In this document: positions 1 through 49,065 of the stretch, piece after piece
How the letters are laid out: each line of letters starts with the position of its first letter
How positions within the stretch are numbered: the stretch's first letter is position 1
Source: Shinella zoogloeoides
GTDB taxonomy: Bacteria; Pseudomonadota; Alphaproteobacteria; Rhizobiales; Rhizobiaceae
Reading direction: 5' to 3'
Assembly: GCF_022682305.1 (NCBI RefSeq)
Contig: NZ_CP093530.1
Span: forward strand, 1-64,000
DNA: 64,000 bases
The notes under the pieces: model-generated
Database searches by the model: none
What the model saw: only the letters and a program-made list of their open reading frames with translations
What the model was told of the DNA's origin: nothing
Made by a program: the position numbers and the translations under genes

Positions 1-124
1 CGTCCTCACGAGCATGCCGGACGACCTCGCTGAAGCGTGCTTTCGCGTCCTCAAGTTTCCACCGCCCGCTCACTGTCGGGTTCACCGGCCGGTTCGTTCC
101 AGAAAGCTGTGTCTGCTTGCCCAT
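1..124 (-). CDS. Phd/YefM-type antitoxin, partial
   Basis: The N-terminal 41 codons of a reverse-strand gene enter from the left edge. After a polar, glycine-rich leader the protein reads WKLEDAKARFSEVVRHAR, which is the DNA-binding N-terminal signature of prevent-host-death (Phd/YefM) antitoxins. Such proteins neutralise a cognate toxin and repress their own operon. The toxin gene would lie beyond the window, so the pairing cannot be checked. The start is the only ATG in this frame near the signature. Confidence 0.75.
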   Translation of the reverse strand, partial: MGKQTQLSGTNRPVNPTVSGRWKLEDAKARFSEVVRHARED

Positions 125-220
125 TCGCTTCACCTAGTCAGATGGTCAGATATATAGCAGCTTCGTCGTTCCGGCGCCAGATCAGGACATGAAAGGAAAA
201 GGTAGAAAGGCGAGTGCCAG

Positions 221-367
221 GCGACCCGTCCGGCTTTGGTCCTGCCGGAACCGGGATTCAGCGCAAGGCCCTTGCCCTCCTCCACTTCGTTCCGGCGCTT
301 CGCGTGCGCCTTCCCCCTATGGTTCCGGCTTGCGGACCGCCGTGACGGGGTCGCGATGGACGCGGCT
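221..367 (+). promoter_or_regulatory. structured leader copy 1
   Basis: This GC-rich stretch lies just upstream of the DUF6878 gene and is about 90% identical to 1231-1378. Its ends are complementary (GCGACCCGTC at 221 and GACGGGGTCGC at 344-354), which would close a multibranched RNA. GGTCGCG at 349-355 can instead pair with the following CGCGGC just upstream of the ribosome-binding site (GGAGAAAAGG). It may be a cis-acting RNA. Function is inferred from sequence only. Confidence 0.5.
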
Positions 368-390
368 TCCGAGGAGAAAAGGAATCTCAA

Positions 391-777
391 ATGAACGGTG
401 AAGACATTCATTCTCGAAACAAGAGTGCCGTTTTCGCAGCTCTGTTGGAACAGGGGCTGACCCATGTCGTCGTGACATTTGACGGATATGGGGACAGTGG
501 CCAGATCACGGAGATGGAGGGGAGAATAGCTGACGAGCCAGTTGAGCTGCCTGATGCAACGGTCGTGCTCGTCGATGCCAACTGCAGGAAGTCCAGCGAG
601 TCCTTGGAAAGCGCGATCGAAACGATGATCTATGATCTCCTCGGCGAGAGTCACGGCGGGTGGCAGGACGGGGAAGGTGCTTACGGGGAGTTCGTGTTCG
701 ATGTCGCGAAGCGAACCATTTTGCTTGATCTTAACGAGCGCTTTATCGAGAGCGCACAGTCTTCTCATGAGTTTTAA
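391..777 (+). CDS. DUF6878 family protein
   Basis: A 128-aa acidic protein of unknown function. The core (VVVTFDGYGDSGQI in the N-terminal third, then HGGW, GAYGEFVFDV and a C-terminal SSHEF) matches the DUF6878 family carried by alphaproteobacterial plasmids. No signal peptide or membrane segment is visible. It is preceded by an AAAAGGA ribosome-binding site and by the structured leader, and followed 11 bp later by the DUF6915 gene, so the two are probably cotranscribed. The family is known mainly from plasmid accessory regions near antirestriction genes. Confidence 0.75.
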   Translation: MNGEDIHSRNKSAVFAALLEQGLTHVVVTFDGYGDSGQITEMEGRIADEPVELPDATVVLVDANCRKSSESLESAIETMIYDLLGESHGGWQDGEGAYGEFVFDVAKRTILLDLNERFIESAQSSHEF

Positions 778-788
778 GGAGTATGGCA

Positions 789-1148
789 ATGGCGCATCCA
801 TATCACCATTCCCTCTCCTCTGTGAAGAAATGGGGCGGTGTAGTTGACGACTACATGCCGATCCACTCCTGGTTCGATGCCAGTAAGGAGATCACCGCCG
901 ATTTTCGTCACCGTGCGCTGCGGCACCACGCAGAAGGCATATTCATGGCTGAGACGATCTTCGGCCCAACGATCAGGCTCTCGACTGGCCGGATCATTCC
1001 GACCCGATGGGTTGGCGAGCAGCATGTCGTCGAGGATCTCGGCCTCATCCCGTCGTTTGCGGACTGGGTGAAGGCCATTCGCCCGGAGCCTTGGATGGGA
1101 CGAACGCGCCGGATCGAGAAAGATCTGGAGGCGGACCTACCCGCATAA
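789..1148 (+). CDS. DUF6915 family protein
   Basis: A 119-aa protein with the conserved pattern MAHPYHH, KKWGGVVDDY, DFRHRALRHHAEGIF and RWVGEQHV that defines DUF6915. It is rich in His and aromatic residues, but no catalytic assignment is known to me. Two in-frame ATGs exist. The one at 789 is chosen because AAGGAG ends 6-7 bases upstream, whereas 783 is too close to it. It forms an operon with the upstream DUF6878 gene, and a strong hairpin follows the stop. Confidence 0.75.
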   Translation: MAHPYHHSLSSVKKWGGVVDDYMPIHSWFDASKEITADFRHRALRHHAEGIFMAETIFGPTIRLSTGRIIPTRWVGEQHVVEDLGLIPSFADWVKAIRPEPWMGRTRRIEKDLEADLPA

Positions 1149-1171
1149 ATCCCGCCGAGTGAGCGGCTTGG

Positions 1172-1198
1172 ATGCCCACCTCGTTGGTGGGCATTTCT
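1172..1198 (+). terminator. rho-independent terminator after DUF6915 gene
   Basis: ATGCCCACC and GGTGGGCAT form a perfect 9-bp stem with a 5-nt loop, followed by a short T-rich tail (TTCTAT). It lies 24 bp after the DUF6915 stop codon. Confidence 0.6.
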
Positions 1199-1230
1199 AT
1201 GTCGCGGCCAAAGCGCGGAGCGCTCGCCGT

Positions 1231-1378
1231 CGCGACCCGTCCGGCTTCGGTCCTGCCGGAACCGGGATTCAGCGCAAGGGCTTCGCCCTCCTCCACTTCG
1301 TTCCGGCGCTTCGCGTGCACCGTCCCCCTATGGTTCCGGCTTCCGGACCGCCGTGACGGGGTCGCGATAGGCGCGACC
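1231..1378 (+). promoter_or_regulatory. structured leader copy 2
   Basis: Second copy of the 221-367 element, here in front of the ArdC-like gene. CGCGACCCGTC at 1231 is complementary to GACGGGGTCGCG at 1355-1366 apart from one bulged G. GGTCGCG (1360-1366) can also form a perfect 7-bp hairpin with CGCGACC (1372-1378) directly before the ribosome-binding site. The two pairings exclude each other, as in attenuators or riboswitches. The ligand or trigger, if any, is unknown. Confidence 0.5.
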
Positions 1379-1399
1379 TCTGGAACGGAGGTAAGGAAA

Positions 1400-2326
1400 A
1401 TGAGGAAAAAGACCGAAGCGCAACGCGTGGACATCTACACGCGCATCACCGACAGGATCGTCGAGGACCTCTCGAACGGTGTCCGCCCATGGGTCCAGCC
1501 GTGGCGCGCGTCCAACATGGAAGGCCGGATCACCCGACCTTTGCGGCACAACGGCCTTCCCTATAGCGGGATGAACGTCCTTCTCCTGTGGTCGGAGACC
1601 ATTGCGCGCGGGTTCTCCTCGCCGATGTGGATGACGTTCAAGCAGGCGTTGGAGCTTGGCGCAGCCGTGCGTAAGGGCGAGTCCGGCGCGACCGTGGTCT
1701 TCGCCAGCCGCTTCAACAAGTCCGAGTCCGACGGACATGGCGGAGAGATCGAGCGCGAGATCCCCTTCCTGAAGGCTTATACCGTCTTCAACGTTGCGCA
1801 GATCGACGGGCTGCCGGACCGCTACTATCAATCCGCAGCGCCTGTTACTGATCCCGTCGAGCGGATCGAGCATGCCGATCGCTTCTTCCGGAACACCGGC
1901 GCGCATATACGCCATGGTGGCGACCGGGCGTTCTTCAGCCCTGCGACCGACCACATACAGATGCCATTCGTCGAGAGCTTCAGGGACGCGGCCTCCTACG
2001 TGGCAACGCTCAGCCATGAGGCCACGCACTGGACGGCGCCAGCGCATCGCGTCGGCCGCGATCTCAGCCGCTACAGCAAGGATCGCAGCGAGCGCGCCCG
2101 CGAAGAACTGATCGCCGAACTCGGCAGTTGCTTCCTCTGCGCCGATCTCGGCATCGCGCCGGAGCTGGAGCCGCGCTCGGATCATGCTTCATACCTTCAG
2201 TCGTGGTTGCAGGTGCTGTGCGACGACAAGCGGGCGATCTTCGCCGCCGCCGCGCACGCGCAGCGCGCCGTCGCCTATCTTCACGGACTGCAGCCGGCCA
2301 CGGCTGAAGAGCGGGAGGCAGCCTAA
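1400..2326 (+). CDS. ArdC-like antirestriction protein
   Basis: A 308-aa protein of the ArdC family (an N-terminal ssDNA-binding domain followed by a zinc metallopeptidase-like domain). The N-terminus has the typical VDIYTRITDRIVEDL...PWVQPWR and NGLPYSGMNVLLLW segments. The C-terminal half has the zinc motif HEATH (about residues 202-206) with a downstream EELIAELGS supplying the third ligand. Plasmid ArdC proteins protect incoming DNA from restriction, which fits a conjugative plasmid. The start at 1400 follows GGAGGTAAGGAAA. An upstream in-frame extension would run through the leader repeat and is rejected. An IS110 gene begins 9 bp after the stop on the other strand. Confidence 0.85.
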   Translation: MRKKTEAQRVDIYTRITDRIVEDLSNGVRPWVQPWRASNMEGRITRPLRHNGLPYSGMNVLLLWSETIARGFSSPMWMTFKQALELGAAVRKGESGATVVFASRFNKSESDGHGGEIEREIPFLKAYTVFNVAQIDGLPDRYYQSAAPVTDPVERIEHADRFFRNTGAHIRHGGDRAFFSPATDHIQMPFVESFRDAASYVATLSHEATHWTAPAHRVGRDLSRYSKDRSERAREELIAELGSCFLCADLGIAPELEPRSDHASYLQSWLQVLCDDKRAIFAAAAHAQRAVAYLHGLQPATAEEREAA

Positions 2327-2329
2327 TGG

Positions 2330-3560
2330 TTTCGTCAAGCTGCATTTTTGAAGTTTTGGCTGAATGGCATTCTGGTCTGGAGGATTGCCCATACGACGTT
2401 TACGCGACGGCGTGCGAGGGCGATGACGGCTTGATTGTGACGCTTTCCCTCGGCACGTTTCCGATCGTAGAAGGCTCGGCTTTCCGGGTCTGCGAGAGCG
2501 TTGAAGGCGGATTGGAAGAAGACACGCTTGAGGGTCTTGTTGCCGCCTGTGGATCGTCGGACGGTTCTGGATTTTCCGGACTGGCGCAGGACCGGAGTGA
2601 GGCCGGCTGCGGCTGCAAGCGCATCGGCCGAACGGAAGCGGCGGGTGGAACCGACGCAGGCGATGAAGTCTGCCGTGAGCACGGCCCCCATCCCTGGCAG
2701 GCTAAGGATGAGGGCCGCGTCAGGGTGGCTTTCAAGAAGCGCTTGGAGATCGCCGTCGATACGGTCGCGCTGGGCGCGGGCTGCCAGCGCCTCGCCGGCA
2801 AGGTCCTGGACCAGCTTGGCCCGGGTTTGCGCGCCTGGCACGTTGATGGTTTGAGCTTTGGCCAGAGCAATGGCGTCCTGAGCCATGGACTGGGCATCCC
2901 GCATGCGGGGATAGACCTTCGTCAGCGCGCGGACGAGATGATGCGGCCTGGCGCCGCGCAGCTCGTGCGGAGCGGCGAAAAGGCTCAGGAAGACGAGGCC
3001 GGCCTTTGTCTTCACGTCGATGCGCCTTTCCAGCGCGGGAAAGAGCGAGGAGAGAAGATCACGCAGGCGCGCAAGGCGTCGGGTTTGATCGACAACGACT
3101 TCGCGGCGCCGACCGACGAGCAAGCGAATGTCGACATCGATCTCGGTCTCGATCTCGACCGGCCGCAGGTCGGTGCGGGTTCGCGCGAGATCGGCGATGG
3201 TTGCCGCATCGCGAGGATCGGACTTGTTCTCTCCGCCGCGCATACCCTGCCGCGCGCGGTTGACCGCCAGGCCAGGTGTATGAACGATCCGCATGCCAGC
3301 TTCGGCCAGCATCGCGCACAACAGCGTGGCACAGCCGCCCAGCAGGTCGAGGGCGACGGTTATACTTTCGGCGTTCAGCACGGACAGTTCGCCGATCAGC
3401 GCCGCGATTCCTTCCGGATCGTTCCTGACGGCATGGCTGAAGACAGGCCTTGCGTCCGCGCCGATCACGCAGGCCCAATGAATGTCCTTGGCGGCATCGA
3501 CGCCAACGTAGAAGTGCATGGCTTCCTCCCTGAAGGGTCCTCCTTAAATTGGCAACCTTC
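2330..3560 (-). mobile_element. IS110-family insertion sequence, approximate limits
   Basis: The element consists of one transposase gene read leftwards. IS110 elements usually lack clear terminal inverted repeats and target duplications, and none could be fixed here, so both limits are approximate. It sits between the ArdC-like gene and the DUF6884-like gene. Confidence 0.55.
2335..3519 (-). CDS. IS110-family transposase
   Basis: A 394-aa transposase. The N-terminal RuvC-like DEDD domain starts MHFYVGVDAAKDIHWA (first Asp at residue 8) and continues with KSDPRDAATIADLA. The C-terminal Transposase_20 (IS116/IS110/IS902) domain has LPGMGAVLTADFIACVG and the serine-containing RQSGKSRTVRRSTGG stretch. 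The length is normal for the family and the frame is open throughout, so it may be active. Its start is preceded by GGAGGAAG. Confidence 0.92.
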   Translation of the reverse strand: MHFYVGVDAAKDIHWACVIGADARPVFSHAVRNDPEGIAALIGELSVLNAESITVALDLLGGCATLLCAMLAEAGMRIVHTPGLAVNRARQGMRGGENKSDPRDAATIADLARTRTDLRPVEIETEIDVDIRLLVGRRREVVVDQTRRLARLRDLLSSLFPALERRIDVKTKAGLVFLSLFAAPHELRGARPHHLVRALTKVYPRMRDAQSMAQDAIALAKAQTINVPGAQTRAKLVQDLAGEALAARAQRDRIDGDLQALLESHPDAALILSLPGMGAVLTADFIACVGSTRRFRSADALAAAAGLTPVLRQSGKSRTVRRSTGGNKTLKRVFFQSAFNALADPESRAFYDRKRAEGKRHNQAVIALARRRVNVVWAILQTRMPFSQNFKNAA

Positions 3561-3767
3561 CCACGCCGTCCTCGCCCTACACAGCGATCAATCGCAGAGC
3601 CTAATCAGCGGTCGGGTCAGGTGTGGAGACCGGGCGGATCTGCCTCCCGAGCCATCAAGGGCGGCCAGCATGATAGCCATACCCAGTCTCCTGCCTTCCA
3701 ACATCCTCGGACATAAAAGCCGTCCGGCAAAGGAAGATGTTGAAACGCTTTTCATTGGTAGGGCAGC

Positions 3768-4319
3768 ATGATGGCTCCTCATCCCGCAAACCGTCTCCTG
3801 ATCCTTGCCTGCTCGGCAACGAAGCGCGACGGCCCGGCCTACATGCCGGCCATCGAACGCTATGACGGCCCCCTGTGGCAGACCCTGCGATCGGTCGACC
3901 CGCGTGGAGAGAAGGCGAAGGTCGCCTTCCTCTCCGCCCGCCTGGGGTTCCGGGCCGCAGCCACGCCGATCGAAATGTATGACGCGCGCATGACGCCGGC
4001 GATCGCGGCCGAGATGAAGGCTGGCGATCTCGGAACGAGATGGCCGAAGCAGAAGACCAGGCGCCGCGGCATGGCCTCAGGCGAGCATCCCGGAATGCAC
4101 ATCGCGACGCTGACGGGCTATGGACGCGTTCCCTTCTCGGATGTCGCCCTCGTCGGTGGCCATCTCTATCTCGATGTCATGCGCCACCTCGTCGACCTGT
4201 TCCGCGAACGCGGTCATATCGTCGGCGACGCGCGGATCACCGAGGTCAATGGTCCCATCGGTATCATGCGTCGCGATCTTCGCCGCTGGCTGGACCGTGA
4301 ATTCGTGGAGGGACATTGA
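3768..4319 (+). CDS. DUF6884-like protein, unknown function
   Basis: A 183-aa soluble protein. The start (RLLILACSATKR), the middle (RYDGPLW, VAFLSARLGFR) and the following PIEMYDARMT resemble the DUF6884/YaaA-like fold, where a conserved Cys/Ser-rich loop follows the first strand. I assign only the family resemblance. The gene ends in TGATG with the PP-loop gene that follows, so the two are translationally coupled and probably act together. The IS110 copy upstream has separated it from the ArdC-like gene and may supply or break its promoter. Confidence 0.55.
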   Translation: MMAPHPANRLLILACSATKRDGPAYMPAIERYDGPLWQTLRSVDPRGEKAKVAFLSARLGFRAAATPIEMYDARMTPAIAAEMKAGDLGTRWPKQKTRRRGMASGEHPGMHIATLTGYGRVPFSDVALVGGHLYLDVMRHLVDLFRERGHIVGDARITEVNGPIGIMRRDLRRWLDREFVEGH

Positions 4320-5263
4320 TGCTCTTCTCTCCGCTTGGTCTCAATCCGGCGGAGGAAGGATCTTCCGCCATTCGCCTTCGCGCGCTCAGCCTCGGTGCGG
4401 GCGTGCAATCCACGACGCTGGCGTTGATGGCCGCTCACGGCGAGATCGGCCCGATGCCTGATTGTGCCATCTTCGCGGACACGGGCTGGGAGCCGCAGGC
4501 TGTTTATGACCATCTCGAATGGCTGATGTCGGGCAATGTGCTGCCGTTCCCGGTTCATATTGTGTCCGCCGGGAACATTCGTGACGACTTGATCGGCGCC
4601 GGCGACGGCAAACGCTGGGCGTCCATCCCGGCCTTCGCCAAGACGGTCACGCCCGCTGGTGTGGTCGTCCCCGTCTACGACGAAGACCATGACGGCGAGC
4701 TGATCGAAATCGGCACGCGCGCGACAGCCCGCGAGACCGTGTCGATCGGCATGATCCGCAGGCAATGCACGACGGACTATAAAATAGTCCCGATCCGGAG
4801 AAAGGTCCGGGCACTCGCCGGCCTCACCCGCAAGCGCTCGCCCGATCATGCTGTCGTGGAGCAATGGATCGGCATCAGCTGCGACGAGATCGTGCGGGCG
4901 AAGCCCAGCTTCGAGCCCTGGCAGGTCAAGCGCTTTCCGCTGATCGAAAAGCGCATGAGCCGGTACGAGTGCCTCTGCTGGCTGCGCCGCCACGGCTATC
5001 CCGATCCGCCAAAGAGCGCTTGCGTGGGTTGCCCGTTTCACGACAATGCACGCTGGCGCTTCATGCGTGACCACGATCTCGCGGCATGGGCCGACGCCAT
5101 CGAGGTCGACCAGGCGCTACGCAATGGCATGAGCGGTATCCGCGGCGAGGTCTTTTTGCATCGTTCGTGCGTGCCGCTGGACGAGGCCGATCTATCGACG
5201 GCCTCTGATCGCGGTCAGCTCGACCTCTGGCCGAACGAGTGCGAGGGCATGTGCGGTGTCTGA
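4319..5263 (+). CDS. PP-loop / PAPS-reductase-like protein
   Basis: A 314-aa member of the adenine-nucleotide alpha-hydrolase (PP-loop) superfamily resembling phage and plasmid PAPS-reductase-like proteins. Visible features are the nucleotide loop SLGAGVQSTTLAL near residue 28, FADTGWEP, CTTDYKIVPIRRKVR in the middle, and a C-terminal cysteine cluster (CLCW, then SACVGCPFHDNARWR) that could bind a metal or Fe-S cluster. Assimilatory sulfate reduction is unlikely given the context. PP-loop enzymes of this type activate substrates for thiolation or other nucleic-acid modification. The ATG at 4319 overlaps the upstream stop. An upstream TTG is less likely. Confidence 0.7.
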   Translation: MLFSPLGLNPAEEGSSAIRLRALSLGAGVQSTTLALMAAHGEIGPMPDCAIFADTGWEPQAVYDHLEWLMSGNVLPFPVHIVSAGNIRDDLIGAGDGKRWASIPAFAKTVTPAGVVVPVYDEDHDGELIEIGTRATARETVSIGMIRRQCTTDYKIVPIRRKVRALAGLTRKRSPDHAVVEQWIGISCDEIVRAKPSFEPWQVKRFPLIEKRMSRYECLCWLRRHGYPDPPKSACVGCPFHDNARWRFMRDHDLAAWADAIEVDQALRNGMSGIRGEVFLHRSCVPLDEADLSTASDRGQLDLWPNECEGMCGV

Positions 5264-5286
5264 CGGCCCCCGGAAGATCGGGGCCG
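5264..5286 (+). terminator. GC hairpin after PP-loop gene
   Basis: CGGCCCC and GGGGCCG form a 7-bp stem immediately after the stop codon. No T-run follows, so termination is uncertain. Confidence 0.35.
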
Positions 5287-5749
5287 CCGCTCCTGGTACG
5301 CCCCCAGACGCGACGACCCCACTCTCTGACCACTCCCGGCCTTGCAACGAACCGGGAGCAGTCGAATTCTTAGCCACTGGCGATGACTGCGACTTTCATG
5401 AAAGTGCCAGAATATCGAAATCCTGCCATGAAATTCCAACGTCTCCGGCATCAGCCGGTGCTTGCGGTAGGGAGCCGTCCTCAACAGAGCACGGAGCGCC
5501 GCCGCGGGGGGCAGTCGATCCCGCCTCCTCTTCGAGGCGCTACGCTGAGGCTCCTGCGGCTGCCCTGCTTCCCGCGCCGGCGCGTCGAGAATTCCCGAAA
5601 TGCCGGCCAGCGGCCGTCGCGATGCTCATTTCTCCGATGCTCTTCATCTCTTCAGATCCCGCCTTGCCCGCTTCGCGGCTCTGCGGCGCGATCGACGCCC
5701 GGCCGCTCCGGACCCACCCATTTCGTCCCTCCCTCTGAAAGGAAAGCCC
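5287..5749 (+). other. noncoding leader region before the 5750 gene
   Basis: There is no convincing gene in these 460 bp. The stretch is GC-rich with many short complementary segments (for example around GAATTC at 5364 and GGCCGTCGCGATG near 5622) and leads into a good GAAAGGAAAG ribosome-binding site. It resembles the other long leaders in this region in position and composition, but I could not define a closing stem. Confidence 0.35.
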
Positions 5750-6142
5750 ATGACTAAGCTGCGTCCGCTCACCCGAGCCGAGCACAATGCCATCAGAGCC
5801 TATGCCATCGAGCATGGGCGGTACTGGAAAGCCAGTCTGCGCGATGACTGGATGAATGCGCGAACCACAGGCGTCATGCAGGCGCTGCGAAATTCCCATG
5901 GCCCGGGCTGGTTGGTGTCATTTTCACTGGTGCGGGATCAATCTTCGGCATCGCCGATCCGCGCTATTTCCGTCACCGCGGGCAATGGCGACCTCTTCGA
6001 GGCGACCATGATGGGAGCCGATGAACCCTGGATGATCGCCTATCCCGAAGGGCAGGATCGATTTTACGGAACGGAACGCGAGGTCCGCGCGCACATCAGG
6101 CAGCTCATCCTGTGCGGCGCGAAGGCAAAGGTCGCGCCGTAG
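5750..6142 (+). CDS. hypothetical plasmid protein
   Basis: A 130-aa soluble protein that I do not recognise. It begins MTKLRPLTRAEHNAIRAYA and contains many aromatic and charged residues (RYWKASLRDDWM, GPGWLVSFSLV). No signal peptide or membrane segment is seen. The ATG follows GAAAGGAAAG at normal spacing, which supports expression. Neighbours on both sides are plasmid accessory genes with long leaders. Confidence 0.6.
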   Translation: MTKLRPLTRAEHNAIRAYAIEHGRYWKASLRDDWMNARTTGVMQALRNSHGPGWLVSFSLVRDQSSASPIRAISVTAGNGDLFEATMMGADEPWMIAYPEGQDRFYGTEREVRAHIRQLILCGAKAKVAP

Positions 6143-6828
6143 GTCGATCCACGGAGCCACGCGGATCGTCGGGACCGGCAGGCTCTCGCCGCATCTTGGT
6201 TCTGGCCATCGCCTGCGGCGACCGCGCTCTATGCCTCCGGCACGCAGCCAGCCTTCGGCCGTCTCCGCCGATGCCGGTGACGATCGACTTGTCCGGGTCG
6301 GCGCTTCGCCGCCCCTAGTGTTGCCCCGGCTGCGCTGTCTTCTCCAGATGGGTGCGAATGATCGCGCTTGCTCATGGTGGATGGCGGGGCACCCGGAAGA
6401 CCGGGAGCGCCCCGCCTTGGCAGGCGGGCTGGGCATCAGTCATCTGTTCGACGGCTCCAGCCCAGGTGAACCCGGCGGCAGGGCGCTGCCATGGCATTAG
6501 ATGCGCGGAGTGCATGGAAGCGGTGCCCCTATGCCTGCGGAAGAGGAGGATTCCGTGCCGTCGAGGGCGTCGTCGTCCTACCGGCATTCGAGGAAAACCC
6601 TCCGGCAGGCAACGCGGAGGGAGCGATATCGGAGGCAGTGGGCTCAATCGTCTGCGGCGGGCACACCGAACCCATAGCTGCAGCCCATTGGAGCCGACGA
6701 GGTTGTCGTCGGCAGCGAAGTGGTGCTGACGATGACGGCCCGCCATTTCCGAGACCCTTCCGGTTTGGTCAACCCTGGCGCGGCCACCACGTCCTCGATG
6801 TGGCATGTCTGATCGGAGACCGGCTGCG
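6143..6828 (+). other. noncoding stretch with a diverged repeat copy
   Basis: No supported gene occurs in about 690 bp. Positions 6211-6282 resemble the 93-bp direct repeats at 8983 and 9851: GGCGACCG near the start, CTAT after it, and GTCTCCGCCGATGCCGGTGACG at the end in the same order. The rest shows short GC hairpins only. ORFs on both strands here lack ribosome-binding sites and recognisable domains. Confidence 0.35.
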
Positions 6829-7007
6829 CCTCGATCGTCTTCCCGCAACGGCCTCCCCCGACTTTCTTCCCCTGTCGGCTGCGCCGCCATTCCTCGCGAA
6901 ACAAGAAAGCCGCCTCCGGCCGCCCTCCACTGCGTTCCGGCCCAAGGGGTGCGGTCCGATCGTCCCCGATCCTTTCGACAGCCATCGAGGTCGCGATGGA
7001 CGCGACC
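6829..7007 (+). promoter_or_regulatory. structured leader copy 3, diverged
   Basis: This leader precedes the DUF736 gene. CCTCGAT at 6829 and ATCGAGG at 6984-6990 can close the element. GGTCGCG at 6989-6995 then forms a perfect 7-bp hairpin with CGCGACC at 7001-7007 just before the ribosome-binding site. The last 20 bp are nearly the same as in copies 1 and 2 although the interior differs, which suggests a conserved arrangement. Confidence 0.45.
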
Positions 7008-7032
7008 CGAGCAACCCGAAAGGATCTCGAAA

Positions 7033-7344
7033 ATGGCTATCATCGGCAACTTCTCCACCAACGGCAATACCATCACCGGTCAGGTCCGCACGCTCACCGT
7101 CCAGATGAAAGCCCGCCTGGTCCCGATCCAGCGCACCTCCCGCGACGCTCCCGACTTCCGCGTGATGGCGGGCATGGCCGAGGTCGGCGCAGGCTGGAAC
7201 GCTACCTCCACCGACGGCGAACCCTACATCTCGGTCAAGCTCGACGACCCGAGCTTCGCCTTCCCGATCAATGCTGCCTTGTGGCCGAGCCAGGCCGACG
7301 GCGACTACGACCTGGTCTGGAACCGCCCGAAGCGCGACGCCTGA
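7033..7344 (+). CDS. DUF736 family protein
   Basis: A 103-aa protein of the DUF736 family, common on rhizobial plasmids and of unknown function. The start MAIIGNFSTNGNTITGQVRTL and the motifs MAEVGAGW, YISVKLDDPSFAFPINA and DYDLVWNRP are all typical. Its length is normal. The ATG at 7033 follows GAAAGGATCTCGAAA. A strong terminator hairpin follows within 11 bp of the stop. Confidence 0.88.
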   Translation: MAIIGNFSTNGNTITGQVRTLTVQMKARLVPIQRTSRDAPDFRVMAGMAEVGAGWNATSTDGEPYISVKLDDPSFAFPINAALWPSQADGDYDLVWNRPKRDA

Positions 7345-7354
7345 CACCGGAACT

Positions 7355-7381
7355 GCCTCGCCGAAAGGCGAGGCTTTCTCT
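7355..7381 (+). terminator. rho-independent terminator after DUF736 gene
   Basis: GCCTCGCC, loop GAAA, GGCGAGGC, then TTTCTCT. The stem is a perfect 8 bp with a stable tetraloop and a T-rich tail. Confidence 0.75.
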
Positions 7382-7401
7382 CCAAGAAACAAGGAGCGGT
7401 T

Positions 7402-7599
7402 ATGACCACACGCATCGAAGAAAGACGCCAGCTGAACCCGAAGGATTTTGCCATATGGCCCGATGGCTCCTGGGCGCAGATCGAAGACATCTGGCGCGGC
7501 GACTACACCTGGAAATCGGACGACTACGAGGTCATCGGCTACGACGATGAGCGGCGTCTTCGCGAGGTCGGCATCGCCGATGATCCCGATTGGCGATAG
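7402..7599 (+). CDS. small hypothetical protein
   Basis: A 65-aa acidic protein, MTTRIEERRQLNPKDFAIWP..., rich in Trp, Asp and Tyr. I do not recognise its family. An AAGGAGCGGTT ribosome-binding site precedes the ATG at ideal spacing, and the gene lies between two terminator-like hairpins, which supports it being a separate expressed unit. Confidence 0.6.
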   Translation: MTTRIEERRQLNPKDFAIWPDGSWAQIEDIWRGDYTWKSDDYEVIGYDDERRLREVGIADDPDWR

Positions 7600-7615
7600 T
7601 CGCCGGCTGAAACCG

Positions 7616-7649
7616 AACCCGCGAGCAGCGTCGAGCCCGCTCGCGGGTT
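7616..7649 (+). terminator. terminator-like hairpin
   Basis: AACCCGCGAGC and GCTCGCGGGTT form a perfect 11-bp stem, 16 bp after the stop of the 65-aa ORF. There is no long T-run. Confidence 0.5.
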
Positions 7650-7705
7650 GGTGGGTGCCATACGGAGAGGAAAAGTCTGCTCAGTCTGTCCGAGGGTGCC
7701 ATGGC

Positions 7706-7836
7706 GGCAGGCAGGCCTCAAGGACGAGCGGTTCCCCCAAATTTCAGTCCCGTCCCTTGCGGGCCGCGCAGAAATTCGGCTCCCCCACTCGCCGGCTCCG
7801 CCGGTCGCGTTCCGCGATCCTTGACCCCTGCCTGCC
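7706..7836 (+). promoter_or_regulatory. leader with long closing stem
   Basis: GGCAGGCAGG at 7706 pairs with CCTGCCTGCC at 7827-7836, and TCAAGGA (7718-7724) pairs with TCCTTGA (7818-7824), giving a roughly 17-bp closing helix with a small internal loop. Inside, AATTTC and GAAATT close a second GC-rich hairpin. The element ends about 47 bp before the 55-aa gene at 7884. Confidence 0.45.
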
Positions 7837-7883
7837 ACCATGACCGCGCGCGTCGTCTTTCACAAAACGTCAAGGAGACGACG

Positions 7884-8051
7884 ATGACCTACGACCTCGA
7901 CCGCACGATCCTGGAACTCGAAGCCGAAGTCCGCAACGCCGATCCCGCGGAGCGCCGCCAGATCGAGGCCGAACTCGGCCTGGCGCGGGCCGAACGAGAA
8001 ACGATCCTGGCCGAACAGGACGGCCGCATCAGCGCCGAGCCGCCCTTCTAG
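7884..8051 (+). CDS. small coiled-coil hypothetical protein
   Basis: A 55-aa protein that is nearly all charged helix (DRTILELEAEVRNADPAERRQIEAELGLARAERETIL), with heptad-like spacing suggesting a short coiled coil. No family is recognised. CAAGGAGACGACG gives a good ribosome-binding site. The stop codon is embedded in a terminator hairpin. Confidence 0.6.
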   Translation: MTYDLDRTILELEAEVRNADPAERRQIEAELGLARAERETILAEQDGRISAEPPF

Positions 8052-8060
8052 GGCGGTTTC
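8040..8060 (+). terminator. terminator overlapping a stop codon
   Basis: CCGCCC, loop TTCTA, GGGCGG, then TTTC. The loop contains the first bases of the stop codon of the 55-aa gene. Confidence 0.5.
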
Positions 8061-8213
8061 TGCCGTGTCGATGGGCCAGCCGCGCCGGATCGACCGGCGC
8101 AACCGGCGCGAAGCTCTGCTCCGCCTTTCCAGGCGGGAGGGAAGCGATCGGAGGAGGGAAAGCCGGTTGCCGCTCCTTCCTTTCGATGCCCTGTCATCAG
8201 CATCGGGGATGTT

Positions 8214-8352
8214 GCAGCCCTCCCGGCGCGCCGCAACCCGCCGCCTCCAGAATTTTCCCCGCCTGCGGCTCCTCGCGCGACAAAATTCAGGCGCCGCCTG
8301 GTCCTCCGCGTCCGCTGCGGCCGTCCCGGTGCAGCGCGCCTCTCCGGGCTGC
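8214..8352 (+). promoter_or_regulatory. leader with closing stem
   Basis: GCAGCCC at 8214-8220 and GGGCTGC at 8346-8352 can close this element. Inside, GAATTTT (8250-8256) and AAAATTC (8282-8288) close a GC-rich hairpin, echoing the AATTTC/GAAATT pair in the 7706 leader. It ends 43 bp before the gene at 8396. Confidence 0.4.
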
Positions 8353-8395: not shown

Positions 8396-8569
8396 ATGCG
8401 CCAACTCGCCAAATTCCTCACCGCCACCGGTCGCCGCCTCCGAGCCCTGGGCAAGGTCGCCGCCCATTTCTTCCGCAAGGGCAAGCTCGGCCTGAAGATC
8501 GCGATCAAGATCCCGTTCTTCGTCGAGATCGAAGTCGCCTTCGAGACCGACTGGAACCGACGCCGATGA
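8396..8569 (+). CDS. small basic hypothetical protein
   Basis: A 57-aa protein with a strongly basic first half (RQLAKFLTATGRRLRALGKVAAHFFRKGK) followed by a hydrophobic segment (IAIKIPFFVEIEVAF). I do not recognise it. It could associate with membrane or nucleic acid. GAAAGGAGTAGAGATC precedes the ATG. Confidence 0.55.
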   Translation: MRQLAKFLTATGRRLRALGKVAAHFFRKGKLGLKIAIKIPFFVEIEVAFETDWNRRR

Positions 8570-9148: not shown

Positions 9149-9397
9149 ATGTCTTCCCTCTATATCCGAGACAGCGATGTCGACGAGCTGGCGAAGAAGG
9201 TCCAGAAGCTGACCAATGCCCCCAACAAGACCGAGGCCGTCCGCCGCGCTCTCGAAAACGAGCTTGCGCGTGCGAAGGAAACCATACCCCTGGTAGAGCG
9301 CATTCGCAAGATTCAGGACGAGGTCGCGGCGCAGCTCGGCCCTAATCCGAAGCCCTTCGACATGAAGGCTTTCAGCGACGACATGTGGGACGCCTGA
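9149..9397 (+). CDS. vapB: VapB-type antitoxin
   Basis: An 82-aa antitoxin of the Rv0623/PSK type. MSSLYIRDSDVDELAKKVQKL and NKTEAVRRALENEL form the ribbon-helix-helix DNA-binding part. The acidic C-terminus (KPFDMKAFSDDMWDA) is the usual toxin-neutralising tail. It overlaps the toxin gene by one base (TGATG), as expected for a TA operon. GAAGGAAAG precedes the ATG. Confidence 0.88.
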   Translation: MSSLYIRDSDVDELAKKVQKLTNAPNKTEAVRRALENELARAKETIPLVERIRKIQDEVAAQLGPNPKPFDMKAFSDDMWDA

Positions 9398-9834
9398 TGT
9401 ATCTCGACGCCTCGGCAATCATCTCGATCCTCACTAAGGAAGACGAAGCCGGCTATCTTGTCGCCAAGCTCGAACGCGCGACCAAGCCGATCTATTGCTC
9501 GTCGATGACGGTGTTCGAGGCGGTCATAAGCCTCGCGCGGCGGATCGCCAACGAGCAGCACGGCAATCAGGCACCCATTCCGCCCGCGATCATTGACGAG
9601 GCCCAGCGCCATGTCGATGCCCTGCTGGAGGCGCTGCGGGTCAGAGAGTTGACCATCAGCGGCACAACGCATCGCAAGGCCGTGGAAGCGGCGCGCACCT
9701 TCGGCAAATTCGTTGCCCATCCGGCGCGTTTGAACATGGGAGACTGCTTCGTCTATGCCTGCGCCAGGGAATACCGCTTGCCTCTCCTGTTCAAGGGCGA
9801 CGACTTCTCCAGAACCGACATCGAAATCGCCTGA
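9397..9834 (+). CDS. vapC: VapC-type PIN-domain toxin
   Basis: A 145-aa PIN-domain ribonuclease. Catalytic acidic residues are visible in MYLDASAI (Asp4), VFEAVISLARR, LNMGDCFVYACA and LLFKGDDFSRTD. Its length is normal. The start used overlaps the vapB stop. The upstream extension in the same frame is not needed. VapC toxins cleave tRNA or rRNA and are held by VapB. Confidence 0.9.
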   Translation: MYLDASAIISILTKEDEAGYLVAKLERATKPIYCSSMTVFEAVISLARRIANEQHGNQAPIPPAIIDEAQRHVDALLEALRVRELTISGTTHRKAVEAARTFGKFVAHPARLNMGDCFVYACAREYRLPLLFKGDDFSRTDIEIA

Positions 9835-17324: not shown

Positions 17325-17365
17325 TTCCAAGGGCGCAATTATACGTCGCTGACGCGACGCCTTGC
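17325..17365. other. oriT: origin of transfer (oriT) with nic region
   Basis: AAGGGCGCAATTATACGTCG followed by the inverted repeat CGTCGC/GCGACG. The reverse strand reads TAATTGCGCCCTT, close to the RSF1010/pTi-type nic sequence recognised by MobA/TraA-family relaxases. Position between traC and traA is that of Ti oriT. Confidence 0.85.
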
Positions 17366-17438: not shown

Positions 17439-20400
17439 GTGGCCGTCCCTCATTTCTCCGTCAGCGTCGTCGCCCGCGGCTCCGGCCGCAGCGCCGTGCT
17501 GTCGGCGGCCTACCGGCACTGCGTGAAAATGGAGTTCGAGCGCGAGGCGCGGACCATCGACTACACCCGTAAGCAGGGCCTCCTTCATGAGGAATTCGTT
17601 ATTCCGGAGGACGCTCCGGACTGGCTGCGGTCGATGATCGCCGATCGCTCGGTCGCGGCCGCGTCGGAGGCTTTCTGGAACGCTGTCGAGGGTTTCGAGA
17701 AGCGCTCGGATGCGCAGCTCGCCAAGGATGTCACCATGGCCCTGCCGATCGAGCTGTCGGCGGATCAGAACATTGCTCTCGTTCGCGAGTTCGTGGCGAG
17801 CCATATCACCGCCAAGGGAATGGTCGCAGACTGGGTCTATCACGATGCGCCGGGCAACCCGCATGTGCATCTCATGACTACCTTGCGTCCGCTGACCGAC
17901 GACGGTTTCGGCGCGAAGAAGGTCGCGGTGCTCGGTGCAGACGGCAAGTCGCTGCGCAACGATTCCGGCAAGATCGTCTATGAGCTATGGGCGGGAGGCG
18001 TCGGGGATTTCAACGCCTTCCGCGACGGCTGGTTCGTCTGTCAGAACCGGCATCTGGCACTCGCCGGTCTCGACATCCGCGTCGATGGCCGCTCCTATGA
18101 GAAGCAGGGCATCGCCCTTGAGCCGACCATCCATCTCGGCGTCGGCGCGAACGCCATCAAGCAGAAGTCGGCCGAGGCGTCCGAGCCGATCACGCTGGAA
18201 CGCATCGAGCTGCAGGAGGAACGGCGAGCCGAGAACGCGCGCCGCATCGAGGACCGCCCCGCCGTCGTCATCGATATGATCGCGCGGGAGAAGAGCGTCT
18301 TCGACGAGCGCGACGTCGCGAAGATCTTGCATCGCTATGTCGATGACGCTGGTCTCTTCCAGTCGTTGATGGCGCGTGTTTTGCAAAGCCCTGACGTTGT
18401 TCGGCTGGAGCGTGAGCATGTGGACTTCGCCAGTGGCGCGCGGGTGCCGGCGAAACTGACTACCCGCGACCTGATCCGCACCGAGGCGGAGATGGCCAGC
18501 AGGGCGGTCTTCCTTGCCGGCCGTTCCTCACACCGCGTCGAAAACGCAATCCTGCAGGAGACGTTCGCGCGGTATTCCCGCCTGTCGAAGGAGCAGAAGA
18601 CGGCGATCGCCCATGTCGCCGGCAGCCATCGGATCGCTGCGGTCGTCGGTCGCGCCGGCGCCGGCAAGACCACGATGATGAAGGCGGCGCGCGAAGCCTG
18701 GGAGGCGGCCGGCTATCGTGTCGTCGGCGGTGCGTTGGCGGGCAAGGCGGCCGAGGGCTTGGAGACCGAAGCCGGGATCGTCTCGCGCACGCTTTCGTCG
18801 TGGGAGCTTCGCTGGAACGACGGGCGGAGCCAGCTTGACGACAAGACGGTCTTCGTCTTGGACGAGGCAGGCATGGTGTCTTCTCGCCAGCTTGCACTCT
18901 TCGTCGAGGCCGTCACGAAGGCGGGCGCGAAACTCGTGCTTGTCGGCGATCCGGATCAGCTCCAGCCGATCGAGGCGGGTGCCGCGTTTCGCGCTATTGC
19001 CGATCGCATCGGATACGCCGAACTGGAGACCATCTACCGCCAGCGTGAGCAATGGATGCGCGATGCGTCGCTGGATCTTGCGCGCGGCAACGTGGCGGCC
19101 GCGCTGAGCGCCTATGACGCGGCTGACCTGGTGCAAACCGGCTGGACGCGGCAGGACGCGATCGAGGGACTGATCGACAACTGGAACTACGATTTCGATC
19201 CGACGAAGACCACGCTCATCCTCGCCCACCGCCGCCGCGATGTCCGCGAACTGAACGAGCTGGCCCGCGCCAAGCTTGTCGAGCGCGGTATTGTCGGCGA
19301 GGGCTCTGTGTTCCGGACCGAGGACGGTGCTCGTCGTTTCGCCGCCGGCGACCAGATCGTCTTCCTGAAGAACGAGGGCAGCCTTGGCGTCAAGAACGGG
19401 ATGCTGGCCAAGGTCGTTGAAGCTGCGCCAGGCCGTATCGTCGCAGAGATTGGCGAGGGAGACAGCCGCAGGCAGGTCACCGTCGAACAGCGCTTCTACA
19501 GTAACGTCGATCACGGCTATGCCACCACGATCCACAAGTCCCAGGGCGCCACTGTCGATCGCGTCAAAGTTCTCGCCTCCAACACGCTTGATCGTCATCT
19601 GACCTATGTCGCGATGACGCGCCACCGCGAGGCGGCCGAACTCTACGTCGGCATGGAAGAGTTCACCAACCGGCGTGGTGGTGTTCTCGTCGATCACGGT
19701 GAGGCGCCCTACGAACACAAGCCCGGAAACCGCGACAGCTACTTCGTCACGCTCACCTATGGTGACGGACAGGAGCGCACGATCTGGGGCGTCGATCTCG
19801 CCCGCGCGATTGATGAAGCGGATGCACATGTCGGCGACCGGATCGGTCTTCGCCACGAGGGCTCGGAGTCGGTGAGACTGCCCGATGGCACGATGGCCAA
19901 GCGCAACACGTGGAAGATCGTGCCGGTCAAGGAACTGGCGATGGAGCGGCTGAAGGAACGCCTTTCCCGCGATGCGTCCAAGGAAACGACACTCGACTAT
20001 GAGGGTGCATCCTCCTATCGCGCCGCCCTCCGTTTCGCCGAAGCGCGCGGCATGCACCTCATGAATGTCGCTCGGACCATTTCCCGCGACCGGCTCGCCT
20101 GGACCGTTCGGCAAAAGCAGAAGCTCGTCGATCTCGCCGCAAGGCTGAAAGCTGTCGGCGCGGCACTCGGCCTTGCCCGCGGCAGCGACAAACAATCCGT
20201 TCCGACCATCGTCAAGGAGGCAAGACCCATGGTTGCCGGCATTACCACATTCGCCAAATCGCTCGAGCAGAGCGTCGAGGACAAACTCTCCAACGATCCG
20301 GCGCTGAAGCAGCAGTGGAAAGATGTCTCCACGCGTTTCCAAATGGTCTATGCGCAGCCGGAGGCGGCATTCGCGGCGATCAATGTTGATGCGATGATAA

Positions 20401-34434: not shown

Positions 34435-35739
34435 CTATCGCGATGCGTAAGCGGCGGGAAAGATAATGTCCTGATCGACGAGGACGTTGAACTTATAGCC
34501 GGGACGGATGCGGATGGTCGGCTGCACGTTGAGGTTCTTCGAAATCGTCTGCTCCGCCACGCGGCCGAAGGATTCCGCGAAGTTGCGCCTTGCTGCATCT
34601 GACGCGGTGTCCTGCGTCGCGAGCGTCGAACTCTCGGGCAAGGACATATCGATCCCGGTCCCGATGATCGCGACGAGCGCGGCCGAGCCGAATGTCCGCC
34701 AGAGGTGGCGATCCACCTTGTCCTTGAACCCGCCATAGCCTTCCGCGTCCGTGCCGGCCATACCGCCGATTTGCAGCGTTGAGCCGTTCGGGAAGATCAG
34801 GTCGGTCCACACGACGAGAACGCGGCTTTGGCCAAAGGACACCTTCGAGTCGTAGCGCCCGAACAGCTTGGCGCCCTGCGGAACGAGAAGCCGGTAGCCC
34901 GTGGCGCTGTCATAGACATTCTGGCTGACCTGCGCGGTGATGCGTCCGGGTAGGTCCGAGTTCAGGCCGGTGATAAGCGTCGCGGGTATGACCGAGCCGC
35001 GTTTCAGCTCGTAGGGCGAGAATTGTGGAACGACGCGGTTGGGCAAATAGCCAAGATCCTTGATGTCCTGATTGAAGAATTCTTCCTTCGAAGTCTGGCC
35101 GTTCTGGTCGACGTTCTGCCCAAGCAGCCCGGACTTCATCGCCGCCGCGTAGAGGTCGGATGTGCCGCTCGGCGCAGTGGCCAGCCGCTGCCCATTTGTT
35201 GTGGCCGTATCGGTGCTGGTGCGTCCGAGATCGGAGATGTCGACCTTCACCGGCGAGTCCAGCGCACCGGCGCGGGCCTGCAAGCGTGCCATACTCTGGC
35301 GATACTTCTCACGGATATATTGCTCTTCCTGCTCGCGCTCCAGGCGCGCCAGCCACTCCTCCCGCGATTCCAGCTTCGGCCGACGCTCTTCCCGTTCGGT
35401 CCGACGAGGCAACTCCGCAGGAACGCTTTTCTCCTCCGCCTGCCGTTCGGCCGCAGGCGTCGGCTGGAAAACCTCGCGCTGTTCCGGCTCGCCGATAATC
35501 CCGTCGGATACGCCTTGCTTGAGCTTGTCGCCATAGGTCGAGGCCGATGTGTTCGAGGCGCTGTCGAGATCGTTGTTGCGCCCGAAAGGCAGGCCGCGCC
35601 AGGAGAGGCCGATCACCACCACGCCAATGAACAGCACGATGAAGATGATCGCCGCGACGATCGGCAACCGATTGAGACGACGCATGCCCTTTTGGTCGTC
35701 GTCCTGAGTGGCCGTTCCGAGCTGAAGCGACTGAACCAT
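34435..35739 (-). CDS. trbI: TrbI, mating-channel protein (VirB10-like)
   Basis: A 434-aa protein. One N-terminal membrane anchor (LPIVAAIIFIVLFIGVVVIG) is followed by a Glu/Arg-rich linker and the VirB10/TrbI domain (GSVIPATLITGLNSDLPGRITAQV and GYRLLVPQGAKLFGRYDSKV). It spans both membranes and links ATPases to the outer-membrane pore. The ATG at 35739 follows AGGAGAAG. It is the last gene of the trb operon. Confidence 0.95.
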   Translation of the reverse strand: MVQSLQLGTATQDDDQKGMRRLNRLPIVAAIIFIVLFIGVVVIGLSWRGLPFGRNNDLDSASNTSASTYGDKLKQGVSDGIIGEPEQREVFQPTPAAERQAEEKSVPAELPRRTEREERRPKLESREEWLARLEREQEEQYIREKYRQSMARLQARAGALDSPVKVDISDLGRTSTDTATTNGQRLATAPSGTSDLYAAAMKSGLLGQNVDQNGQTSKEEFFNQDIKDLGYLPNRVVPQFSPYELKRGSVIPATLITGLNSDLPGRITAQVSQNVYDSATGYRLLVPQGAKLFGRYDSKVSFGQSRVLVVWTDLIFPNGSTLQIGGMAGTDAEGYGGFKDKVDRHLWRTFGSAALVAIIGTGIDMSLPESSTLATQDTASDAARRNFAESFGRVAEQTISKNLNVQPTIRIRPGYKFNVLVDQDIIFPAAYASR

Positions 35740-47310: not shown

Positions 47311-47397
47311 CGAGAATCCCCGTCAAGAGTCTGGTGAGGACATTTTGGCACCGTTTTGGTGAGCGGACGTCTTTTGCCTTTTGAAAGGTGAAGGAAA

Positions 47398-48819: not shown

Positions 48820-48966
48820 TGACGTTCGTACCTCCTCCCACGAACTTCATATAGCGAGTGATCTTCTCCTCCCTTGATCGCTCGCACCGGATCGGCGGCG
48901 CTCCTCCTCCCAGTTGCCGATCACAGTTTGGAAAGCCTGCCGCACCTCCTCCCGCGGCAGGCTTTT
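48820..48966 (+). ncRNA. tandem-hairpin small RNA with CCTCCTCCC loops (cuckoo/CcsR-like)
   Basis: Four consecutive hairpins each show TCCTCCC in the loop: GTTCGT/ACGAAC (48824-48845), GCGAGTGATC/GATCGCTCGC (48854-48885), GATCGGC/GCCGATC (48890-48922) and GCCTGCCGC/GCGGCAGGC (48935-48962), the last followed by TTTT and acting as terminator. Anti-Shine-Dalgarno loops in tandem are the hallmark of the alphaproteobacterial cuckoo/CcsR RNAs. The rest of the repC-serA gap holds no supported gene apart from a fragment at 49066. Confidence 0.8.
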
Positions 48967-49065
48967 CTGTTCTCAGCATACTGGCTGGTGTGCGTTTCAC
49001 CCTGCGGTCACGGCCCTGTAGCGTTTCGAACAGACCATTTTTCCGCGCTACCGAGCAGGTTCCTG

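Follow-up and report, generated by a model that had tools for sequence, protein, structure and literature searches.

Conserved elements ahead of rhizobial leading-region genes as probable single-stranded-DNA regulatory elements of conjugative plasmids

The first 64,000 nucleotides of contig NZ_CP093530.1 of Shinella zoogloeoides (assembly GCF_022682305.1, positions 1 to 64,000 of the forward strand; hereafter the window) contain three structured repeats, A, B and C, each placed directly ahead of a gene start. We consider, with a probability of roughly 0.7, that in the leading region of a conjugative plasmid these repeats serve as single-stranded-DNA regulatory elements, acting like the Frpo promoters of the F plasmid. 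The elements lie in one orientation ahead of genes templated by the transferred strand (T-strand), their structure is conserved with a pooled signal for that strand, and they share a partial kinship with Frpo. On the best reading, they are single-stranded-DNA promoters, or priming sites, for the early expression of anti-defence genes. An earlier note on this DNA had suggested that they may be cis-regulatory RNAs of plasmid establishment genes. The structured family with either/or pairing that it described was confirmed, while the assignment of the whole element to a cis-regulatory RNA was not, because the wobble pairs of the rod are mostly placed on the antisense strand, opposite to two RNA controls, and because the elements are placed and oriented in the leading region as single-stranded promoters would be.

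Element A (217..371, minus strand, which is the transferred one) is characterized by a long branched rod and a terminal hairpin, and was matched by the R1 covariance model, built from 45 ardC-type leaders, at 130 bits. The 5' arm of its closing stem (221..230) pairs with 344-354, as judged from the sequence and the closing stem of homologues, and competes with the terminal hairpin GTCGCG-ATGGA-CGCGGC (350..366, plus strand). Behind A are a DUF6878 gene (391..777, plus strand; Pfam PF21798, E 1e-42) and a DUF6915 gene (783..1148, plus strand; PF21866, E 8e-48). Element B (1228..1382, minus strand; R1 match 146 bits), with the terminal hairpin GGTCGCG-ATAGG-CGCGACC (1360..1378, plus strand), precedes an ardC-like gene (1400..2326, plus strand), which encodes an ArdC N-terminal domain (PF08401, E 7e-41) and a zincin-like peptidase domain (PF18818, E 3e-48). 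A further CCTC...GAGG hairpin (1377..1391, plus strand) covers the ribosome-binding site of this gene and is present in the consensus fold of 78 ardC leaders, an alignment which includes the sister-plasmid copy of B. Element C (6829..7011, minus strand), with the terminal hairpin GGTCGCG-ATGGA-CGCGACC (6989..7007, plus strand), precedes a DUF736 gene (7033..7344, plus strand; PF05284, E 1.4e-32), for which 55 leaders were aligned.

In agreement with the earlier description of A and B as copies of about 90% identity ahead of unrelated genes, their identity was 94% over 144 bp, and the next matches within the genome, C included, were far weaker. By BLAST, C was recovered at 70% over 81 bp (E 0.23). 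The R1 model, in whose training set both A and B were included and C was not, matched it on the minus strand at 6866-7011 with E 4.4e-5, which supports the view that C is a diverged copy. Calculated folding was more favourable for A, B and C than the average of 100 shuffled sequences, on either strand and with RNA as well as DNA parameters (z -1.6 to -4.4).

The position of the elements relative to the origin of transfer (oriT) is the first argument for a function on single-stranded DNA. The oriT core of the window (17327..17359, no strand assigned) matches that of pTi_GV3101 at each of its 33 bases, and the MobA/MobL relaxase domain of TraA follows at 17487..18167 (plus strand; PF03389, E 8.7e-75). 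We take the nick to be of the RSF1010 type, with the minus strand cut at TTGCG/CCCTT (17330-17338). With this cut, it is the minus strand that is transferred, led by its 5' end and running toward coordinate 1, and therefore positions 1 to 17.3 kb constitute the leading region, whose plus-strand genes are templated by the T-strand. The elements are located directly upstream of ardC, DUF736 and other genes reading toward oriT. This arrangement is not limited to the window. Of the 99 further ardC loci inspected, 26 had a recognisable oriT, always in the same orientation and 4.8-10.4 kb downstream of ardC, and 35 a recognisable TraA, again all in the same orientation downstream; in the remaining loci neither was recognised within the stretch examined. 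The leading-region position with a T-strand template, which is that of Frpo, was thus found in all 26 oriT loci, all 35 TraA loci and the window. The order DUF736, traG-traD-traC, oriT, traA of pTiC58 is also the layout of the window. The leading region of F contains ParB-like, antirestriction, methylase, SSB and PsiB genes, all in one orientation, and the ArdC and ParB_N genes found here resemble this gene content.

The elements belong to a widespread family. Relatives of A were detected by BLAST in 276 records of a plasmid collection, mostly from Rhizobium and Agrobacterium (118 each) and including pTiC58; 196 of these records are typed as conjugative. At 19 of these places, ArdC or a 'zincin-like metallopeptidase' was annotated right behind the element in 15 cases and ArdC was located there by tblastn in 3 more, the remaining place being the sister-plasmid copy of A. 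For the comparison of leaders, genomes were scanned with an ArdC alignment and the best 80 of 567 relatives were taken as genome loci, which together with the plasmid regions and the window gave 100 loci. The gene block ParB_N - hypA - hypB - H196 - ArdC - DUF736, where H196 denotes a gene of about 196 amino acids (aa), was found whole or in part in all of them (75, 56, 64, 93, 100 and 85 loci, respectively), with the genes co-oriented with ardC at their best match save for 1 of 85 DUF736 genes. A second ArdC match was present in each of the loci L058, L064 and L071. Besides ardC and DUF736, the H196 and ParB_N genes each possess their own long conserved leader. Thinning at 93% identity reduced the leaders from 100 to 78 (ArdC), 90 to 57 (DUF736), 89 to 61 (H196) and 61 to 50 (ParB-N), and after the removal of two outliers each from DUF736 and H196, the final sets comprised 78, 55, 59 and 50 sequences.

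The consensus folds of these four leader families contained 56-86 pairs (RNA parameters). In the covariance model of the 45 ardC-type leaders, compensatory changes were observed in 14 of 27 model pairs, which supports a real structured family. The same model also matched, at E 4e-6 to 0.04, leaders of DUF736 genes elsewhere that had been absent from its training set, and gave matches in at least 8 of 299 scanned Pseudomonadota genomes, about nine candidates being scored per genome. The mutually exclusive pairing described for A and B is a property of the family as well: in the non-redundant ardC leaders, at least 5 of 6 Watson-Crick pairs of the closing stem were retained in 54 of 78, at least 6 of 7 pairs of the terminal hairpin in 75, and at least 3 of 4 pairs of the competing extension of the closing stem in 68, so that either alternative can form in 68 of 78. 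A known RNA family was excluded, since no Rfam match at gathering score was obtained at the elements of the window and five further loci, nor any up to E 1 in window positions 1-7500. An ordinary repeat or mobile element was likewise ruled out, since the family covaries and its hairpin motif sits upstream of leading-gene starts.

That motif, GCCGNAACN3-4GTGNAG, is a short hairpin of the T-strand. In the window it occurs three times, at 280..296 in A, 1291..1307 in B and 6925..6941 in C (all minus strand), against 0.02 expected. Across 1.67 Mb of rhizobial loci, 104 sites were found on the T-strand and none on the sense strand (about 2 expected from shuffles), and 98 of the 104 lie 30-240 nt upstream of a leading-gene start. 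The earlier note had held that a lack of covariation, or repeats lying equally often away from gene starts or in antisense orientation, would refute its proposal; neither was observed, and the proposed tie to the starts of plasmid establishment genes was retained. With the alternative form CCGNAACN3-4GTGNAGG added, the number of sites rose to 109, with 102 upstream of those leading genes. Of the seven sites left, six stand ahead of a gene of 57 aa which is also found in the window (8396..8569, plus strand; without Pfam match). Ahead of it there, a more diverged fourth element, D, is probably present at about 8265-8333 (minus strand), as suggested by a partial R1 match (8265..8333, E 0.36) and a looser form of the motif at 8320; the tighter motif stands upstream of homologues of the 57-aa gene at 6 other loci. 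Weak covariance-model matches, which may be due to chance, were also noted on the strand of the elements at 7981-8129 (E 0.11) and 35131-35282 (E 0.29).

Structure by itself does not indicate which strand is folded, and the drift of base pairs was used for this purpose. A G-C pair that drifts to G.T, as read on the sense strand, suits a sense RNA, and drift to A.C corresponds to a G.T wobble on the opposite strand. So as to favour neither strand, only stems that Watson-Crick-only consensus folding gave on both strands were used. Pooled over the four leader families, A.C exceeded G.T in 87 rod pairs and G.T exceeded A.C in 32 (sign test, p 5e-7). The G.T to A.C counts were 8:22 in DUF736, 9:30 in H196 and 4:18 in ParB-N, and the pooled excess persisted after identity thinning (31:78 at 80%, 29:54 at 70%). 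Two RNA controls, each consisting of 30 loci that were the best-scoring genomes' matches, corrected for orientation, behaved in the opposite manner: cobalamin riboswitches from the same family gave 17 G.T to 3 A.C, and RNase P RNAs from the same order 32 to 7. The eight Frpo copies submitted to the same test gave 4 G.T to 8 A.C.

The predicted stabilities point in the same direction. With RNA parameters, the minus strand was the more stable one in 59 of 78 ardC, 52 of 55 DUF736, 59 of 59 H196 and 44 of 50 ParB-N leaders; with DNA parameters, in 66 of 78, 53 of 55, 58 of 59 and 44 of 50. The corresponding values were 2 of 30 for RNase P, 13 of 30 for cobalamin riboswitches and 8 of 8 for Frpo. 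Moreover, one T-strand G.T pair is invariant in all 45 ardC-type leaders. GNA triloops, which as in d(GCGAAGC) form very stable DNA hairpins, favour the T-strand by 64:5 in ardC leaders and 27:0 in DUF736 leaders. A long imperfect T-strand stem-loop upstream of the gene, kept on that strand as in Frpo, was thus observed for the pooled families, the ardC family alone not reaching significance. The long rod seems to be kept on the T-strand, not in the messenger RNA.

The similarity to the known single-stranded promoters is partial. Frpo promoters are reported to be active in vivo on entering single-stranded DNA and to reconstitute -35/-10 boxes in their stem (PMC9849209), and a single-stranded promoter role has been proposed for anti-defence islands in general (PMC11541004). 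Frpo and the related ssi sites of F and IncI plasmids resemble the rhizobial elements in their leading-region position, in genes reading toward oriT and in a long irregular T-strand hairpin directly upstream of gene starts. Near-identical copies occur on one plasmid in both cases: Frpo1 and Frpo2 share 92% as published (PMC9849209), or about 89% as computed here, versus 94% for A and B. The lean of the wobble pairs is the same, and a weak similarity of sequence profiles was found. A profile hidden Markov model (HMM) of rhizobial ardC leaders only was searched against 112 kb from five enterobacterial plasmid segments with ten BLAST-detected Frpo copies (one partial copy was excluded from the strand test and the remaining 9 were reduced to 8 at 97% identity). 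Its top 7 matches all fell in Frpo copies in gene-sense orientation, five of them at 7.9-9.6 bits, above the 6.4 bits that was the best of 40 shuffled sets; on F alone, 8.1 and 7.9 bits were obtained against a best of 6.0 in 50 shuffles. The motif GCCGNAACN3-4GTGNAG gave 5 matches in the enterobacterial segments, all on the T-strand of Frpo copies (5 of the 10), with none in L154 or L157, but these are not independent evidence, because the motif was generalised after F had been seen. The rhizobial-only form CCGNAACN3-4GTGNAGG had no match in these segments; a looser form had 3 of 8 sites outside Frpo and 16 matches on the rhizobial sense strand. By sequence comparison, the rhizobial elements may be partially akin to Frpo. 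They differ from it in length (about 150-250 nt, and about 400 nt in Frpo), in having no detectable -35/-10 boxes and in belonging to another host class. Phage N4 virion RNA polymerase promoters are small hairpins on a single DNA strand. Their GNA loops and their place near the transcription start are likenesses to the present elements; the N4 hairpins are much smaller and are read by a phage polymerase.

Several results weigh against the interpretation of the elements as Frpo-like promoters. The first concerns the promoter boxes. In scans for E. coli-type -35/-10 hexamers, with CTATAT as an alternative -10 in the leader scans, no pair scoring at least 9 of 12 was found in window positions 1-8000, where shuffles themselves gave only 1.1. 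Pairs inside the elements were found in 0 of 98 ArdC, 0 of 83 DUF736, 2 of 89 H196 and 0 of 60 ParB-N leaders, and boxes of this type reconstituted in the stem, as in Frpo, were not observed. In consequence, the elements are not to be filed as Frpo, and there is room for a priming site or another mode of recognition. The second concerns the strand signal. The ArdC family taken alone gave 11 G.T to 17 A.C rod pairs (p 0.35), triloops are undecided in H196 (21:18) and ParB-N (19:11), and an outer ParB-N rod helix, with 74 G.T to 41 A.C, runs opposite to the pooled rods. Biased mutation of the exposed strand could produce a similar T-strand wobble signal. In ParB-N, the strand bias may indeed be mutational, because unpaired columns are more biased (2.56) than paired ones (1.90); in H196, the bias of the unpaired columns is reversed (0.70 vs 2.33 in pairs). 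G-C transition rates are without strand bias in ardC (0.87) and DUF736 (1.02), and the strand evidence for ArdC rests on fixed features, namely the invariant T-strand G.T pair and the GNA triloops. The third concerns the folds, since the consensus folds shrink to 8-39 pairs with DNA parameters and some leaders were barely better than shuffles (z -1.3 to -2.0 for the pTi ardC leader; -0.7 for the T-strand of the ParB-N leader of locus L009, DNA parameters). The last concerns the kinship with Frpo. Two of the 7 HMM matches, at 4.9 bits, are inside the shuffle range, 3 of the 10 Frpo copies found by BLAST are absent from the matches, the DUF736, H196 and ParB-N leader HMMs gave no gene-sense Frpo match in F, and the covariance model detected no Frpo. 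A shortened core HMM was rejected as a link to Frpo, its best real match lying outside Frpo and its shuffles reaching 9.1 bits. The pTi ardC leader had no BLAST match in an E. coli genome collection.

The strand preference is not uniform along the elements. Most rod helices of the DUF736, H196 and ParB-N leaders have T-strand wobbles, and ArdC rods are about even. Several short hairpins by the ribosome site carry sense wobbles (G.T:A.C 25:8 in DUF736; 28:1 and 32:6 in ParB-N), and a helix of Frpo which occurs only in the sense fold, near the gene, does so as well (24:1). Exceptions are the terminal helix of H196 (21:61) and a ParB-N helix beside the start (10:45). Pooled terminal pairs gave 23:15 and rods 32:87 (Fisher p 3e-4), with the boundary between rod and terminal sets drawn post hoc, after the helix-by-helix counts. 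From this we infer two successive zones, the first functioning as DNA and the second as RNA, and place the start of transcription at their junction. The short terminal hairpin and the hairpin at the ribosome site may have a translational role.

The mechanism that would follow for single-stranded-DNA regulatory elements can be outlined. The T-strand, the minus strand of the window, would enter the recipient 5' end first, from oriT at about 17.33 kb to lower coordinates, and each element can fold on it into a long branched rod. The folded rod would be recognised by the RNA polymerase of the recipient, or by a primase, and transcription would start near the base of the rod. DUF6878/DUF6915, ardC, DUF736 and the small genes would in this way be expressed at once, ahead of second-strand synthesis, and conversion to double-stranded DNA would switch the elements off, making their expression early and transient. 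The terminal hairpin and the ribosome-site hairpin would fall in the resulting messenger RNA and may tune its translation.

A more specific proposal, which we regard as tentative, is that the elements belong to a class of single-stranded-DNA promoters which lacks canonical boxes and is broadly distributed in Alphaproteobacteria, and whose recognition element would be the conserved T-strand hairpin shared with part of the Frpo copies. The recognition hairpin would be GCCGNAAC-N3/4-GTGNAG, with GNA facing GNA in an internal loop, and transcription would start where the strand of the wobbles switches from rod to terminal hairpin.

It is unlikely that the elements are cis-regulatory leaders of messenger RNAs, in which the folded sense RNA would govern each gene through a translational switch placed at the ribosome site. 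Conserved structure just upstream of start codons with either/or pairing, as kept in 68 of 78 ardC leaders, is indeed what structured 5' leader RNAs and riboswitches display; the ribosome-site hairpin of the ardC consensus fold and the sense wobbles of some terminal hairpins fit such a role, and the pooled terminal counts are compatible with it. The rods, however, are not maintained on the sense strand, their wobbles being mostly on the strand opposite to that of the riboswitch and RNase P controls, and no Rfam family matched the elements of the window and the five loci searched. Such a leader would also need a promoter ahead of it. At -330 to -200 from the start, E. coli-type promoters were found in 0 of 98 ArdC, 0 of 83 DUF736 and 0 of 89 H196 cases (shuffles 4.4, 2.0 and 1.6), and in 4 of 60 ParB-N cases versus 4.4 in shuffles; this stretch overlaps the element in H196 and ParB-N. 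Read-through from the upstream gene may be blocked, since one or two terminator-like hairpins were seen by eye upstream of the ardC element in many of 34 intergenic stretches (of 76), these lying between H196 and the ardC element at L010 and other loci.

Improbable too, in our estimation, is that the elements are mainly single-strand initiation sites, at which the folded T-strand would prime second-strand synthesis through primase or primosome assembly, with expression as a secondary effect. T-strand structure and leading-region position suit this explanation equally well, as does the missing of canonical promoter boxes, and the founding Frpo paper (Masai and Arai, 1997) is, by its title, said to deal with both transcription and primer synthesis. 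Nevertheless, one or two sites anywhere would suffice for priming, and here several copies per plasmid are placed right before gene or operon starts. Antisense RNAs, in which the rod would be a minus-strand transcript across the ribosome site that represses the gene, predict the same wobble strand as T-strand DNA but are the least probable explanation, since minus-strand promoter-like sites at gene starts were not above shuffles (3 of 98 vs 9.0 in ArdC, 4 of 89 vs 4.8 in H196, 0 of 60 vs 3.6 in ParB-N) except slightly for DUF736 (7 of 83 vs 4.2), and the leading-region position and the similarity to Frpo would be left unexplained.

Other features of the window and of its relatives can be mentioned briefly. 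A terminator-like hairpin with a weak T-run stands between DUF6915 and B (1174..1192, plus strand), as seen in the sequence, although the scan did not call it. Directly behind ardC, at 2335-3519 on the minus strand, is a frame of 394 aa, which by its look may encode an IS110-type transposase; in pShin-10, a close relative of the window, an IS110 transposase is annotated elsewhere in the corresponding region. A gene of 55 aa without Pfam match is present in the leading region at 7884-8051 (plus strand). Toxin-antitoxin-like genes are found on both sides of the leading genes: by position and length compared with the pShin-10 annotation, the left edge (1-130, minus strand) holds the start of a Phd/YefM antitoxin and 9149-9834 (plus strand) a VapB/VapC-like pair. 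Rfam matches elsewhere in the window were the ar14 small RNA at 48848-48969 (plus strand, E 4e-17) and the S-element at 47333-47400 (plus strand, E 4e-7), and an ar15 small RNA lies at L009:97-209, some distance upstream of the ParB_N gene of the sister plasmid.

The duplicate itself has a probable origin. In 265 of the 276 plasmid records that carry a relative of A, the match is only 60-80%, and DUF6878 occurs in 2 of 100 loci, the window and pShin-10. Since A and B share 94%, A probably arose by recent copying of B, the ardC element, and was reused for a newly acquired gene pair.

Summarizing, the single-strand promoter mechanism is already known from the E. coli F plasmid. Among the top-listed articles of full-text searches of open-licence PMC, none described such elements for Alphaproteobacteria, including Ti and symbiosis plasmids, in its title or the beginning of its abstract, and when the body of the principal anti-defence paper was searched by word, none of Agrobacterium, Alphaproteobacteria, Rhizobi*, ArdC, DUF736 or MOBQ appeared. 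Crown gall and nitrogen fixation spread through the conjugation of tumour-inducing (Ti), root-inducing (Ri) and symbiosis plasmids, and to our knowledge the survival of these plasmids on entry into a new host has been little studied. If the proposed function is true, the elements would provide an early-expression mechanism for the anti-defence genes of these plasmids, single-stranded promoters would reach into a further class of bacteria and a further type of relaxase, and the wobble-strand test would offer a way of telling single-stranded-DNA elements from structured RNAs by sequence alone. Should the class without canonical boxes also prove true, the expression of anti-defence genes from single strands would have an earlier origin and a broader range than the enterobacterial plasmids of its discovery, and Ti and symbiosis plasmids would make use of it.

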